DNA from: Tridacna crocea
Lineage: Eukaryota; Mollusca; Bivalvia; Cardiida; Cardiidae
Assembly: GCA_943736015.1 (NCBI GenBank)
Contig: OX031057.1
Span: forward strand, 39,642,501-39,706,500
Direction: 5' to 3'
Length of the DNA: 64,000 nucleotides
Shown here piece after piece: positions 2,514 through 50,885 of the stretch. A program made the position numbers and the translations under genes. Numbering within the stretch: the first letter of the stretch is position 1; each line of letters opens with the position of its first letter. The notes beneath the pieces are model-generated. The model was not told the DNA's origin, made no database searches, and saw only the letters and a program-made list of their open reading frames with translations.

Positions 2514-3220
2514 TCATCATTGTTGAAACAATTATCAGCAATGAAAGTAATGAATCCCATCCAAAGGGCTATCACTGAGATCAAGATCTGACTGTATAAA
2601 ACATTTAGTCTGATCCAGAGTCTTGTATAAGAAATTCACTTCATTTTAAAGTCTCAGTAGAGCCAACGAATGGGTAATCTTCAGCGTTTATAGCTTGAAA
2701 ATATAACAGATTAGCCATCACAACACACATATATAAGATCAGAGAAAACCCGAACATATGTCAGTTACTGCATTGGTTGTCATAATATATGAGTGTGAAA
2801 ATGCACGGAGAAGCCCATCGATTACAGGGCCACAATTGATCAAGACAACTTTCGTTATCGTTCTAGTATATTCAAACAAGATTTTTGAGAAGGTCATGTG
2901 ATAACATTGCATCTCATTAGTGCTATGACGTAGAACACAAGACTATTGTTTACACTTCCAATATTATGTCATCGGAGACTAAGTATGATCATTCTGAACC
3001 TATTTTCCTATTTCGATGAAGTTAACTCTTCCTGCATTGATGATACACAAATAAGTGACCATCAACTTTAGTTGTTGTTTCTGTCGACAATGTGGGTAAA
3101 TTTGGTTTTCAAGCCTACAATGGGGACAAAACAATCAATGGGGACAAAACAATCACAAGTGAGATCAAGTGAGTTAAAGTTTTGTTTGACGGGTTGAATT
3201 ATCACGTGGTGTTTACATCC
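2514..3220. other. non-coding Vav intron sequence
   Basis: No gene seen. A weak SINE-body remnant lies at about 2505..2560 (caattatcagcaatgaaag). A short direct duplication (caatggggacaaaa) lies at 3118..3150. Confidence 0.45.
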
Positions 3221-3449
3221 TTAACCCATTACCACACAATCCCTACTTTTGACGCCCCTGAGAAAGAAGCCTTTAGAAAACATTGTGGGAAAAGGAGAAA
3301 ATGCTGGTAACCAGCATTTTCTCCTTTTCCCACAATGTTTTCTACCCTTCACAAAACAAATTTCAAATTTTCAGTCACTTTTATTTTGTCGTCTGCAAAT
3401 GCTTTCAATTTGGACCAGTCTAAAATATTGTGGTTTGGTAATGGGTTAT
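3221..3449 (+). mobile_element. TTAA-MITE, full-length
   Basis: Close to the family consensus. The hairpin is perfectly paired over about 60 bases, with loop tggtaacca. Confidence 0.9.
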
Positions 3450-3689
3450 TAAATCACTGCTCAGATTTACGACGAAAAGTCGGCTAACCAATGGCAATCA
3501 TCAATGTAAATAAACAAATAATGCAGCATGGTAGGATCTGTTCTACTTTCAAAATTCTTTTTCCACCACTGTCGGGTTGCTTTTACAAAAAAATGCGGCT
3601 TTACATATCTTTAAAGTCATAAAAATCGGCCTATTTTCACATGGTAAACATGAAATTTACTTTTATTCTTTAAACAGGTCTTTTTATGT

Positions 3690-3845
3690 TCAGACTTATG
3701 TACTGACACTTTAAGAACTTGGTTATTATCATGTTAGACAGCGCACCACTGTGTTTCCTGGCTTCCTCACACCAGTGCTGACACAACATGTTTTCAAAGC
3801 CTTTGACTCCTTCTTTACCTGCATCAGGTGAGAGGCAAACACATC
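3690..3845 (-). mobile_element. SINE body fragment
   Basis: Contains tttcctggcttcctcacacc and the caggtgagaggcaaa segment, both present in the insertion at 6802..7057. The tRNA-like head is missing. Confidence 0.5.
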
Positions 3846-3892
3846 TGCACCTTCTGATACTGAATTTTTTAACCAGTAGTCTTGACGGTTTC

Positions 3893-4123
3893 AATCTTTT
3901 TTCAAATGACAAAATTTTCGACTTGTCCAAACTGAAAGCATAATTATGCAGATGACAAACCAATGTGACTTCAACAATGAAACTAGACTTTGGAAGAGTA
4001 CAAAACATTGTGGGAAAAGCAGAAAAAGCTGGTTAACAGCATTTTCTTCTTTTCCCACAGTGTTTTCGAAAGGCCTCTTCTTCAGGGTCGTTAAAAGTCA
4101 GGGATTGTCTAGTAAAGGGTTTA
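3893..4123 (-). mobile_element. TTAA-MITE, near full-length, diverged left end
   Basis: The hairpin (gtgggaaaagcagaaaaagc) and right end (ggattgtctagtaaagggtt) are clear. The left terminus has lost TTAACC. Confidence 0.8.
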
Positions 4124-4254
4124 GGCAGATATTTCAGTCTAGTTTAATGATAAGGTGTCAACTTCACACCAAGAGTCCGATTATTTATGTTTTCTTACAT
4201 TTATATCTGTTTTATTGTTTGTTTGCAGACTTATCAACCTGTACATTACATCAT

Positions 4255-4465
4255 GGATTTTCAAATCACGAAACATTCTTCCCAAGCCACTGGCTGCTTG
4301 CCCTATAGTTTTTTGGGTGAAACAACAATAAGACAAGTTAGGACGGAATGAATCCTGTCAAAATGACCATAATCAGTTAATGAAAGAAATTTCTTATTTT
4401 TGAATTTGAACCAGCATCCTAATTTTAACCTCTGCATGTTTGCAACTGAGCTATAAGGCCTTGAA
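4255..4465 (-). mobile_element. tRNA-derived SINE, diverged
   Basis: The reverse complement begins with a TATAGCTCAGTTG A-box-like head and GGTTCAAATTC B-box. The tail reads agccagtggcttgggaag. Confidence 0.55.
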
Positions 4466-4633
4466 TTCTTCACAAATTAACAATTCTTAGTCTCTTTCTA
4501 TTAAGTCTGTCTCCAGAAAATATATTAGAAACTGATACAAATAAGCCAAGTTCTCTAATAGGATATAAAATATCAAGAAAAAGAAGTTCTCATATACGGA
4601 ATAAAGTATCATGGAAACAGGAGAAAATGCTTA

Positions 4634-5085
4634 TTAACCCATTACCACACAATCCCTACTTTTGACGCCCCTGAGAAAGAAGCCTTTTGAAAACATTGTG
4701 TGGTGTCCGTGGTCGTGAGGTAGAGCGTCGGCCTCATAACCTAAGGGTCCTGAGTTCGATACCTGGGAGCGGGTGTCAACTTTGGGATTTTTCATTGGCC
4801 CACACATTCGGCGCGAGTACTGGTGTAGTTCCCAGGAAGCAGAATCGAGAGAGATTAGTATAAGTTGTAAGAACTTGTTTCTCAATCGATGTAAAATAAA
4901 TATGTTTAAACTAAAACACTGTGGGAAAAGGAGAAAATGCTGGTAACCAGCATTTTCTCCTTTTCCCACAATGTTTTCTACCATTCAAAAAACATATTTC
5001 AAATTTTCAGTCACTTTTATTTTGTCGTCTGCAAATGCTTTCAATTTGGACCAGTCTAAAATATTGTCGTTTGGTAATGAGTTAA
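4634..5085 (+). mobile_element. TTAA-MITE, full-length, interrupted by a SINE
   Basis: Intact from TTAACCCATTACCACACA to the end at GTTAA, except that 4701..4912 is a younger insertion in the left arm. Without it the copy would be about 228 bp. Confidence 0.9.
4701..4912 (+). mobile_element. tRNA-derived SINE with target-site duplication
   Basis: Head GTGGTCGTGAGGTAGAGCG (A box) and GAGTTCGATACCTGGGAGCG (B box), followed by a short body ending aaaataaatatgtttaaac. It is flanked by aaaacattgtg (4690..4700) and aaaacactgtg (4913..4923), an 11-base duplication with one mismatch, as expected of LINE-driven insertion. A second copy lies at 25966..26098. Confidence 0.85.
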
Positions 5086-5207
5086 TCCTTTACTCCATAG
5101 ATACTCATTTCTACGCATTGCTTGCAGCAGTTTTAAAAAGACCGCCCTTCTCTACAAACTTAAAAAGTGTCCCTCATAAAACTCGGGATTGTGTGGTAAT
5201 GGGTTAA
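5082..5207 (+). mobile_element. TTAA-MITE remnant without hairpin (chimeric ends)
   Basis: The left end matches the copies at 5.9 and 29.9 kb (CTTTACTCCATAGATACTCA). The right end is the common gggattgtgtggtaatggg type. The hairpin is lost. Confidence 0.6.
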
Positions 5208-5347
5208 TGAGTTTCAGGAAAGGAAGAAAACATTATGGGAAAAGGAGAAAATGCTGTTTACAAGCATTTTCTCCTTTTCCAACTATGTTTTCAAAAGGCT
5301 TCTTTCACAGGGGTGTTAAAAGTGGGGATTGTGTGGTAAAGGGTTAA
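5208..5347 (-). mobile_element. TTAA-MITE lacking its left third
   Basis: Hairpin (cattatgggaaaaggagaaa) and right end up to gtggtaaagggttaa are present; the segment with the CAATTTGGACC motif is absent. Confidence 0.75.
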
Positions 5348-5431
5348 TGAGTTAAACCTTTTCAAGTCGGAAAAGCAGCCCCAATATCATTATTTCAAGA
5401 TTGTTTTTTGCCATAACGTGTAATATACTAG

Positions 5432-5510
5432 CAGATAGTGTAAATCTAAGATCAGACTGCACATGCTGTACAGTATGATCTTGATCTGCACTGTCCGCAA
5501 AAGCAAGTAA
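5432..5510. repeat. short palindromic repeat (GATCAGACTGCACA type)
   Basis: AGATCAGACTGCACATGCTG is followed by the imperfect inverse and GATCTGCACTGTCCGC. Related pieces occur at 24010, 24250, 31905, 33625, 34055, 43510 and 57900. Confidence 0.5.
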
Positions 5511-5654
5511 ACTTGGTTACAGCACTGCAAGGATTAGTGCAGAAATGAAAATTTTGTTTTTCGTTACTTAGCAGGATAAGGCTCGGGGCATCTGGCACAT
5601 TTGGTACAGAACAATAACAAACAGATGATGTATTCTTACTTCCTACCAACCCCT

Positions 5655-5851
5655 CACAAAATAATCCTATGCATTAGCAATGCTGTAAAGTGAGGCTTTT
5701 GAAAACATTGTATGAAAAGGAAAAGATGCTGGTAACCATTTTTTACACAGTTTTACCTTATCTTTGGCACAGATTCCATCATTTGCGCTATATTTATCCA
5801 GTGCAGATGCTCTCAATTCAGACTAGTCTAACAATTTATCAACTAGTAAAG
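5655..5851 (+). mobile_element. TTAA-MITE, degraded
   Basis: aggcttttgaaaacattgta and the right segment (gcagatgctctcaattcaga) are recognisable. The right hairpin arm is mostly lost. Confidence 0.6.
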
Positions 5852-5886
5852 GTTTCACAAAGTTTGTAGCAAATAACTTAACATGT

Positions 5887-6111
5887 TTAACCCTTTACTT
5901 CATAGATACTCATCTTTACACATTGCTTGTAGCCTTTGGAAAACATTGTGGCTAAAGGTGAAATTGCTCGTGATGAGCAATTTCACCTTTTGCCACAATG
6001 TTTTCTATGCTATCAAAAGGTTTCATATACACATAAGAAACAGCTTCATCCTTGCTCTTATTTAGGGTCAATTAAGATATCATAGAAATGCCTTATGGGG
6101 TAAAGGGTTAA
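5887..6111 (+). mobile_element. TTAA-MITE, variant subfamily C, full-length
   Basis: Ends TTAACCCTTTACTTCATAGA and TATGGGGTAAAGGGTTAA. The hairpin arms read GTGGCTAAAGGTGAAATTGC and its near inverse, differing from the main type at several paired positions. The flanks between hairpin and termini are unlike the main family. The sister copy is at 29890..30120. Confidence 0.85.
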
Positions 6112-9516: not shown

Positions 9517-9570
9517 ATGTGTAAACTGACAATTCATTAGCACTGTAAGAAATGATAGTTGTTCATGTTG

Positions 9571-17775: not shown

Positions 17776-18233
17776 TTAAGCCTTTGCCACACAATCCCGA
17801 GTTTTAACCCTTTCCCAAACAACAAAACTTTAGACTGGTCCAAAGTCAAAGCAGTTGCAGATGACAAAGTAAACGCAAGTCAAAAATTAAAATTTGTTTC
17901 CAGTAGGGTAGAAAACACTGTGGGAAAAGGAGAAAATGCTGGTTACCAGCATTTTCTCCTTTTCCCACAATGTTTTCAAAAGTCTTCTATCTCAGGGTCG
18001 TAAAAACAAGGGATTGTTTGGGAAAGGGTTAACAACCCTGATAGAAAAGACCTGAAAACAATGTAGAATAAAAGAGAAATTGTCAGTTACCAGCATATTC
18101 TCCTTTTTTCACAATGTTCGCAAGCCTATCAAGGTCAAATTTCCTCATTCAACCTACTTGGTGCCTACCTTGTTGCCTACAAATGCTTTCAATTTGGACA
18201 AGTACAAAATTTTATCATTCAGTAGAAAGTTAC
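17776..18233 (+). mobile_element. TTAA-MITE (outer), split by another TTAA-MITE
   Basis: The left end (gccacacaatcccgagtt) is interrupted at its internal TTAA. The sequence resumes at 18029 with TTAAcaaccctgatag and runs to a diverged right end. Excising the inner copy with one TTAA restores the normal order. Confidence 0.87.
17804..18032 (-). mobile_element. TTAA-MITE (inner), with exact TTAA duplication
   Basis: Begins CCCTTTCCCAAACAACAAAA and ends TTGTTTGGGAAAGGG, with TTAA at both sides (17804..17807, 18029..18032). The hairpin is perfect. This defines the element ends as CCC...GGG with TTAA target duplication. Confidence 0.93.
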
Positions 18234-26737: not shown

Positions 26738-26815
26738 AGGTGCCCGACACTGGATTCGAACCCACAGCCCTGTAAACTTGCACCTCAGTTCTACCAACTG
26801 AGCTAGTCGGGCGTC
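26738..26815 (-). mobile_element. tRNA-like SINE head 1
   Basis: Reverse strand: GCCCGACTAGCTCAGTTGGT, GTGGGTTCGAATCCAGTG and a matching 3' GTCGGGC. Both promoter boxes and the acceptor stem are well kept, but the anticodon stem does not pair. I therefore call it tRNA-derived rather than a functional tRNA. Confidence 0.65.
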
Positions 26816-29742: not shown

Positions 29743-30505
29743 TTAAAGGTGGGTATTTAGAATTTTCACATCAAACCAAATTAAAAAAAATATATATCAT
29801 TGAAATTTATATGAAAAAAACAATATAAATCATCAATAATTAAGAATCATAAAATTACAAAAAAAAATTTTTTTTTTGATGGTATTCCCTTAATTTAACC
29901 CTTTACTCTATAGATACTCATTTCTATGCATTGCTTGTTGGAGACCTTGGAAAACATTGTGGCTAAAGGTGAAATTGTTCGTGACGAGCAATTTCACCTT
30001 TTGTCACAATGTTTTCTACACTATCAAAAGGTGTCATAAAAACATTAGAAACAGCATCCTTGCTGTTATTTAGGCTCAATTAGAGATACCATAGAAATGC
30101 CGTATGGGGTATAGGGTTAAAAGGCTACGTAGCCTCTTACGCTATTTTTAGATTTTGCGCCAAAAATCAATAAAGCATTGTGGGAATGTCAAATGAATGG
30201 CACATGACTAATAACACTTAAATTGTATTACATAACAAACATGTAATAATATTCCATAATGTCTTCTTCGGAAGGATGTTTGAAACTTTATCTGTGTTTA
30301 AATGAGAGAATTGATAATCTAAAAATAGAACATGTCTCCCATTGGTGTCAACCTGGTCCGTAATAAATCCCAAATTTCTTGTGTTATCGGATGGCTTTCG
30401 ACTACTGGGGTTTTATGAGCGCAAATTAAAAGGCTATGGGAGTATAAGGATGATTTTTTTGCATTTTTGTAAAGTTTCGTCCCAGAATCTGAAGGGCCAC
30501 CTTTA
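29743..30505 (+). mobile_element. 545 bp element (TTAAAGGTGG termini), split by a TTAA-MITE
   Basis: TTTAAAGGTGGGTATTTAGA at the left, GAAGGGCCACCTTTAA at the right. It contains the palindrome AAGGCTACGTAGCCTC and CGACTACTGGGGTTTTATGA. With 29890..30120 removed it matches the intact copies at 36.7 and 42.4 kb. Confidence 0.88.
29890..30120 (+). mobile_element. TTAA-MITE, subfamily C, nested in the 545 bp element
   Basis: The host reads ggtattcccTTAA before and TTAAaaggctacgtagcc after. The other copies read ggtattcccttaaaaggcta without interruption. Hairpin arms GTGGCTAAAGGTGAAATTG with GAGCAATTTCACCTTTTGTC. Confidence 0.92.
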
Positions 30506-48165: not shown

Positions 48166-49140
48166 CCTTGACCTTGCACTGAATGTAATCTATGAGCATA
48201 ATCCCACTGCTTGGCTTTCTTTGATTTATTTTTGAATAGTTCTAACTAAATTTTATCATATTAAAAATCTTGGGGATGTTACAAACGCTTAAGTCTTTGT
48301 ACTGTAATTGCTTCTGCATTTTTCTTCCTAGGCTTTTGTTTGGCTTGCATCATTGAAATAATGGTAAATTTTGTTTTTTTCTAAAATGTTTTCATGTTAG
48401 TACAAGTACTCAACAACTGCATGATTTAGTGTTGCTAGCTTTGAATTGCTGTCATTGGCTTCTTTACTTTTAGAAGTAGTATTGGTTTTGTGAATTAGTT
48501 ACTTCATCTTCTGTATTACTGAAAAGAACTTATTTCATTACTGAGAAAAACCAGTGCACTTCAGTTGATTTGTACAGTCAACCTAATGGAATACAACTGA
48601 AAAACTAACCTAAGAATTTTTATTAATATTAAAAGCTGTAGAAATTCAGATTACGGTATACCAATACAAAGTCATTTATCAGTGGAGACATACAAAATAT
48701 TGTATATCAAGTTAATTTCTTCAATTCTCTTCATGGTGTAGGCTACATGTGAATGGGATTTGTTCATTAGAAGATTCATTGCGCTTTCATTTTATCATAT
48801 AGCCAGAGCACTTGCTATCTGCACAGGTGGAGGATAATTGTACCAATTACATCAGACTGTAATAATCTAGACTTTTATTTCCGAAAACAGAGCGATAGGC
48901 CAGATCATTACAAACGTCGGAGGCGACGACAGCAAGTTGTAAGCATGGAGACTTCAGTGTAGAACTGGGGTCATATGTTGTATATCTGTGTTTGCTCACT
49001 TGTCTGCATGAAACAGTTATAAAACTAACCAGACTTGTAACAATACCACAACAAGTTCTAATGTGCATGTGACATAAAGGAGCCATATCTGTGTAACTGT
49101 GTGTTCATTTTTGTGTGTATGAAAATTCTAAACCATAATT
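48166..49140 (+). other. intergenic or UTR sequence between the 47.9 kb exon and RABEPK
   Basis: No repeats of the families above are seen here, unusual for this window, which suggests UTR/promoter sequence. No AATAAA was found. The first RABEPK codon follows aaattctaaaccataatt. Confidence 0.4.
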
Positions 49141-49969
49141 ATGGAACTACACCCAATTCTTGAAACTGACACTTTACCAAACCCAGAGTTATGGTATGTA
49201 ATGTCTGGTCTAGGAGACTGTCCAAGTTTACGTGTGGGCCACTCCTGCAGTTTTATTCGAGGTAAACATGAAAGAGACAATGGACATTTATATGTTATTG
49301 GTGGGGCCAATCCTAGCGGGCCATTTTGTGATGCTTATGTGCTGGACTTGAATACCCTACATTGGGATTTTATAGATAGTCCTGGATTTCGTGCTAGATA
49401 TGAACACTCATCCTTTGTACTGGAGTCACAGCCAACAAAAATCTACATATTTGGTGGAGCAGATCAAACAGGCAATATGAATGATGTTCAAATTCTGGAT
49501 ACTGAAAGTCACACATGGAGTTCTGTCACTGCCAAAGGAAAGCCACCATCAGAGAGGACTTATCATACAAACTCGGCTGTTGTTGGTGACAAGTTTATTG
49601 TGTACAGCGGTGGTCATTGTGGGGCTGACCCTGTTGGTGACCGACAAGTTCACGCATTTGATGCCAAAACACTTTCGTGGGAAGTGTTAAGTGTAAGGGG
49701 TGATTCCCCTAAACCTAGACATGGTCATGTGGTGGTTGCTGTTGGTAACAAAGTTTATGTGCATGGTGGAATGTCTGGTCAGAACTTTTATCATGATATG
49801 CATGTACTAAATATAGATAAAATGACTTGGTCAGATGTAAAACGAAGCAAGAAGGTTTTTCCTTCAGCAAGAGCTGGTCATGGAGGTGTTGCCATAGGAA
49901 CAAATATTTATATTTTTGGTGGGATGAACAGAGATGGTGCTATAGATGAGTTGTACAAATTTGATACAT
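49141..49969 (+). CDS. RABEPK: Rab9 effector with kelch motifs (RABEPK/p40-like), exon 1
   Basis: First of three coding exons of a complete gene encoding 422 residues. In vertebrates RABEPK binds GTP-Rab9 and supports late-endosome to trans-Golgi transport. The exon encodes residues 1-276. It shows RVGHSCSF (31-38), GGANPSG (54-60), RYEHSSF (86-92), IFGGADQTGN (103-112), RHGHVVVAVG (193-202), VHGGM (207-211) and IFGGM (258-262). Five Gly-Gly doublets, at about 54, 105, 157, 209 and 260, mark kelch blades spaced near 51 residues. The closest match I can recall is human RABEPK, sharing the RVGHSCS, GGANP and RYEH..SF blocks. ATG 49141 is the first Met after an in-frame TAA at 49129. The exon ends in phase 1 at a GTGAGT donor; if the intron were retained the frame would stop at 50019. 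Confidence 0.95.
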
Positions 49970-50065
49970 GTGAGTATAGTGCACTGTTTGTAGGCAGGAT
50001 AGCTAAATATTTGTGCTGAGGTATCACCTACATGTAGATGCTTTTTTGTTTGGTTTTGAGCACCA

Positions 50066-50454: not shown

Positions 50455-50885
50455 GTAGGATATTGAGAAATAGCAGTGAAAATATTTTTTGATCTTACAC
50501 TGGCCCAACCAGTGAAAATACCGACTTTCATGTTCTTGTTGCCTAGGTAAATTGCCTGTGCCGAACAACCAGATGGGAAATATGAAGTCATATACCTTAC
50601 ATTTCTCGCACTTGATGTGATATTGTAATGTGTTGCTATGCAGGAGGGGTGCGCCACAAGGAATAACATAAAAAAACTGTACTGGATGTTGATAAAGCTC
50701 CTCCCAGAAAGGGTTAAAAGCAAGAAATAAATAGATTTTTTTTTTTTTCGGTGAAAGATCGAAATTTATTTCATTGAGTGAACACCATAGGTAATATTTT
50801 CACGAGTGGCTGCACCACTCGTGAAAATATTACCGATGGTGTTCACTCAATGAAATAAATTTCGATCTTTCACCGGAAAAAACAA
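50455..50885 (-). mobile_element. palindrome-headed repeat (copy 2)
   Basis: Reverse of 11020..11460. The hairpin 50749..50875 pairs CGGTGAAAGATCGAAATTTA onward with one mismatch across 63-base arms and a very short loop. Confidence 0.82.

Follow-up and report, generated by a model that had tools for sequence, protein, structure and literature searches.

A TTAA-flanked MITE nested in an older relative, and a conserved palindromic core in its abundant family, in Tridacna crocea

In the bivalve Tridacna crocea, a 221-bp non-coding MITE is inserted into an older relative, splitting this outer copy at its internal TTAA. The nest lies in a 64,000-nucleotide stretch of DNA, here called the window (contig C2, 39,642,501-39,706,500), of a 1.05-Gb genome assembled in 31 contigs, 18 of them chromosome-sized. 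We place a probability of roughly 0.83 on the overall explanation that the element is a non-autonomous piggyBac-type MITE, mobilised into TTAA sites and recognised through three blocks. Most likely, a piggyBac transposase, itself presumed and supplied in trans, would excise the MITE and reinsert it so that TTAA flanks either end. The internal TTAA of the outer copy served as the target, hence a copy within a copy. The parts of the nest are as follows (window coordinates).

17776-17779, no strand: TTAA flank of the outer copy
17780-17803, minus strand: first piece of the outer, older copy, matching the family model when joined to the second
17804-17807, no strand: left TTAA target duplication of the inner MITE
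17808-18028, plus strand: inner MITE, 221 bp, left end CCCTTTCCCAAACAA, right end TTGTTTGGGAAAGGG
17808-17822, plus strand: left terminal inverted repeat (TIR) of the inner MITE, CCCTTTCCCAAACAA, 15 bp
17911-17977, no strand: central palindrome of the inner MITE, 67 bp, 32/33 pairs and one central base
18014-18028, minus strand: right TIR of the inner MITE, reverse complement of CCCTTTCCCAAACAA
18029-18032, no strand: right TTAA target duplication of the inner MITE
18033-18229, minus strand: second piece of the outer, older copy, matching the family model when joined to the first
18230-18233, no strand: other flank of the outer copy, TTAC, read as a decayed TTAA

The sequence-only reading had claimed a TTAA element with exact ends and target inside an outer copy broken at its own TTAA, and both claims are borne out, the first to the base (17808-18028, TTAA on either side) and the second over the identical span, 17776-18233. 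With the TTAA counted in, the end repeats of the inner copy match in 19/19 pairs. Many relatives in the genome match exactly 17804-18032 at 93-98% (among the best 40 candidates scored), an extent that fixes the ends of the inner MITE independently. Scored alone with the family model, the left piece of the outer copy reaches 9.7 bits and the right piece 91.2 bits; joined via one TTAA, the two reach 118.8 bits across model positions 7-220 with a gap-free junction, so that removing the inner copy with one TTAA does restore a continuous outer copy, as had been proposed. The model consensus contains a single internal TTAA, at position 194, which is present in 39/190 aligned copies, and nested copies at loci L003 and L016 have the same insertion site as the window case. 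At locus L025, around 2811-6050, several TTAA-anchored matches are arranged symmetrically about one centre, which suggests a large inverted repeat.

The family model, built from 36 window copies and possibly catching family B cores as well, accounts for 35.8% of the window and, across 21 sites totalling 210 kb, for 19.9% (1-53% at single sites), with 97 full-length matches there; in one base-shuffled counterpart of this sequence it found 0. Roughly one fifth of the sequence sampled at these sites thus belongs to the family, and simple scaling would put full copies genome-wide at several hundred thousand, a rough estimate, as the sites were set at round-number coordinates along the 18 large contigs. 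Among other features of the window are a kelch-repeat coding stretch (49132-50019) and a tRNA-Leu predicted with a bacterial setting (26739-26812).

The TTAA target extends to the family as a whole. In 139 full copies from the window and the 21 sampled 10-kb sites, TTAA flanks both sides in 79, one side in 42 and neither in 18. Set against a TTAA background frequency of 0.0078 per position, with no second peak at neighbouring offsets, and together with the zero matches in shuffled sequence, these counts show that the pattern is not due to chance. When flanks were joined, 20/117 TTAA-bounded copies, drawn from the window and the 21 sites and also from loci L002-L020 (chosen by similarity), were nested in another copy, a count that includes marginal members (E 9e-5 for the weakest) and has no shuffled-flank control behind it. 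Exactly four bases separate 39/187 full copies from another element end. The elements are small, uniform and non-coding, with 152/231 left-end/right-end pairs falling within the 200-239 bp bins. Among the copies listed by end type, 50/52 start with CC or CT. The inner copy has the terminal CC[C/T]T motif and, in CCCTTTCCCAAACAA, a TIR within the 12-19 bp range; the motif is not found in every copy, older ones frequently starting CTCTTT or CTCATT. Judging from the spread of copy divergences, the family would have expanded in several waves.

Conservation is marked in the centre of the element. The 67-bp palindrome occupies model positions 104-170, where the commonest base has a mean frequency of 0.935 over 190 copies, compared with 0.808 and 0.806 in the two arms. 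Heuristic clustering yielded six groups: four main ones of 85, 10, 39 and 49 copies (the last loose, with 20% mean divergence), one of six copies and one single decayed copy. The four main consensuses are identical in the core and 8-28% apart in the arms, with variable columns numbering 0/67 and 49/154, respectively (p 2e-9). The interior is also more conserved than the TIRs, the first and last 13 columns each containing 3 variable ones. Outside the core, about 60 columns on the left and about 30 on the right are fairly conserved; columns 61-100 and 181-190 are not. The sequence-only reading had called the family palindromic, which holds for the 15-bp ends and the 67-bp centre, both inverted repeats, but not for the arms between them. 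Where cores do differ, the changes are paired: the six-copy cluster (cluster 2) differs in 3 pairs, 3/3 matched, and the family B consensus in 4 pairs, 4/4 matched, plus the central base, making five distinct paired changes in total, two of them common to both. Family B has different arms and a variant core, and is present twice in the window.

5891-6107, plus strand: family B MITE, with TTAA at 5887-5890 and 6108-6111
29899-30116, plus strand: family B MITE, second window copy

This TTAA MITE of about 217 bp also occurs at loci L024, L027, L029 and L041. Further palindromes lie in the window at 9565, 10108, 11537 and 50115, and a near-perfect one at 50751-50873 (58/60 arm pairs) has no match to the MITE core.

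Three blocks, namely the left end of about 60 bp, the right end of about 30 bp and the central palindrome, are therefore the conserved ones, and it is probably through them that the element would be recognised. The conservation of the core suggests a third cis-acting part of the MITE. Tentatively, and at slightly less than even odds, we propose that the palindrome acts in transposition beside the two ends, as a symmetric binding site or an extruded cruciform; selection on source copies through mobility would preserve the exact letters and the symmetry of the core as the arms diverge, and would let a single MITE group take up about a fifth of the genome.

The distribution of changes bears on where this constraint acts. 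In trees of 139 copies built from all columns, arm columns only or alternate columns, the core/arm ratio is 0.30, 0.19 and 0.29 on internal branches and 0.57, 0.63 and 0.56 on terminal branches, respectively (p 5e-6, 2e-15 and 3e-6). The lower internal ratios indicate that constraint is strongest in source lineages, and there may be some slowing in dead copies as well; the terminal branches also include unsampled source evolution, so that their ratios cannot settle decay after insertion. The core/arm distance is 0.81 in the 59 closest pairs and about 0.43 in distant pairs. Singletons, taken as a proxy for post-insertion decay, give mixed evidence on whether an inserted core can decay freely: four clusters show no difference between core and arms (p 0.11-0.43), singletons are rarer in the core of 16 young copies (p 0.02), and pooling all 190 copies puts their frequency higher in the core than in the arms (p 3e-6), an excess expected if arm variants are already shared.

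These same figures weigh on the possibility that the core is conserved by gene conversion or a lower mutation rate of palindromes rather than by a need for mobility. Fewer core changes on terminal branches, in the closest pairs and in the young copies are what such a process would leave; against it stand the equal singletons of core and arms in the four clusters and the drop of the core/arm ratio from terminal to internal branches in 3/3 trees. Correction of the palindrome inside copies was sought by arm pairing and by matched double changes, and none was seen: an arm pairs as well with the other arm of its own copy (0.768) as with that of another copy (0.768), and matched double changes in family A number 104, not above the 115 +/- 11 of shuffles. 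Both results argue against ongoing correction, and we regard this explanation as unlikely, though the best placed of the alternatives. A little less likely still is that the hairpin persists for its effects as RNA, in making or avoiding small RNAs, and not for DNA recognition. As a single strand the inner element gives a much better fold than its shuffled versions (z -8.65, DNA parameters), with the core as the main stem, and one human miRNA family reportedly stems from a MITE (PMC1784062). On the other side, no Rfam family reaches the cut-off in the window, a result that says little about an undescribed small RNA. Lower again we rank the idea that the core derives from a single capture of an unrelated sequence and is carried passively, its invariance reflecting recent shared ancestry of the sources; a core identical in the four main clusters would fit, but recent ancestry would have preserved the arms of the same consensuses also, unless arms were exchanged.

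Mobilisation of the MITE by a piggyBac transposase is likely, because a TTAA target and CC[C/T]T ends are, together with 12-19 bp TIRs, piggyBac hallmarks in the accessible text of PMC2872659, and RR ends are those of Kolobok. The piggyBac transposase domain has at least 118 matches in the genome, counting fragments, of which at least 31 score above 240 bits; 27 of these 31 have no stop within the match. The protein at locus L042 matches piggyBat in the PDB (9c0f, 8.9e-43) and entry 6x67 (8.3e-39), named 'Transposase', which we take to be piggyBac. Loci L042 and L045 are 98% identical, with similarity beginning exactly at TTAACCCTTTATATACGA, read as the 5' end of this transposase family, and CCCTTTA in common with the MITE ends; no TTAA stands at the 3' limit of their similarity. 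In the flanks read at L043 and L044, element ends were not found. L043 had looked promising as a partner, MITE remnants flanking its gene, and was set aside as the unit's own ends were never reached: a 3401-bp query matches six places (itself included) over its whole length at 98-100%, MITE remnants included, and the next 400 bp are identical in the C15 and C10 copies. The locus itself (G000:C15:28711700-28715100) is an intact 492-aa piggyBac-type frame; the repeated unit around it measures 3.8 kb or more and has old MITE remnants aboard. Clusters of piggyBac transposase matches, mostly partial, occur in G000 at C13 4.48-4.61 Mb and at C8 50.4 and 56.7 Mb. The earlier proposal of piggyBac-type mobilisation thus stands as regards TTAA, terminal motif, TIR length and domain matches; the check proposed with it, for CCCTTTACCA or CCCTTTCCCA ends around a full-length transposase gene, brought up no gene with this MITE's ends at the 4 loci read with flanks out of the 31 strongest. 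Likewise, no longer parent with both MITE ends was recognised among the longer end pairs in the fetched DNA, of which a 444-446 bp group fits nested copies.

That the family belongs instead to Kolobok or another TTAA-using superfamily is very improbable: Kolobok likewise duplicates TTAA and its KolobokP lineage is abundant in bivalves (PMC9587614, accessible part), yet Kolobok termini are 5'-RR...YY-3' (PMC9587614 and PMC6004289, accessible parts), AGGRR in Xenopus T2 (PMC6004289), which the predominant CC or CT starts do not fit, Kolobok being set apart here by its termini. The T2-MITEs of Xenopus, as far as the available portion of PMC6004289 describes them, share with the family here a TTAA target and long-lived, abundant MITE subfamilies, and differ in having AGGRR termini where the present family has CCC.

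A literature search, mostly not extending to subscription papers, returned nothing on this family and no account of a MITE with a conserved palindromic core. The closest comparison is with Acropora corals (PMC2872659, from which all statements on corals are drawn, within its accessible text). The piggyBac-like transposons AmiPB1, AmiPB3 and AmiPB4 of these corals, which encode a transposase, have TIRs, CCCTTTCCCGTCC, CCCTTTCCCTACTA and CCCATTCCCTGCCACA, that resemble the CCCTTTCCC and CCCATTACC ends found here, whereas at the four loci read in T. crocea no such element with the latter ends was found. The CMITE families of Acropora have in common with the present family the TTAA duplication, ends such as CCCTTTCCC(G/T)(T/C)CC, tandem copies, the insertion of one element in another's TTAA and an interior that varies less from family to family than the ends do. 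They differ in size, at about 100 bp, 75 bp of it internal region, against 221 bp with a 67-bp palindrome that shows paired changes, and in number, A. millepora being estimated to have 18-737 copies of each family against about a fifth of the sampled sequence here. The word palindrome is absent from the accessible CMITE text. The CMITE interior is described as conserved and of obscure origin, and a role of the internal region in transposition is offered by the authors as speculation. Taken together, the coral CMITEs are a partial precedent for a conserved MITE interior, and a very abundant unnamed repeat, now tied to exact ends and a TTAA target, provides a testable case of constrained internal MITE sequence, probably at the level of mobility, for the question that the coral work raised.
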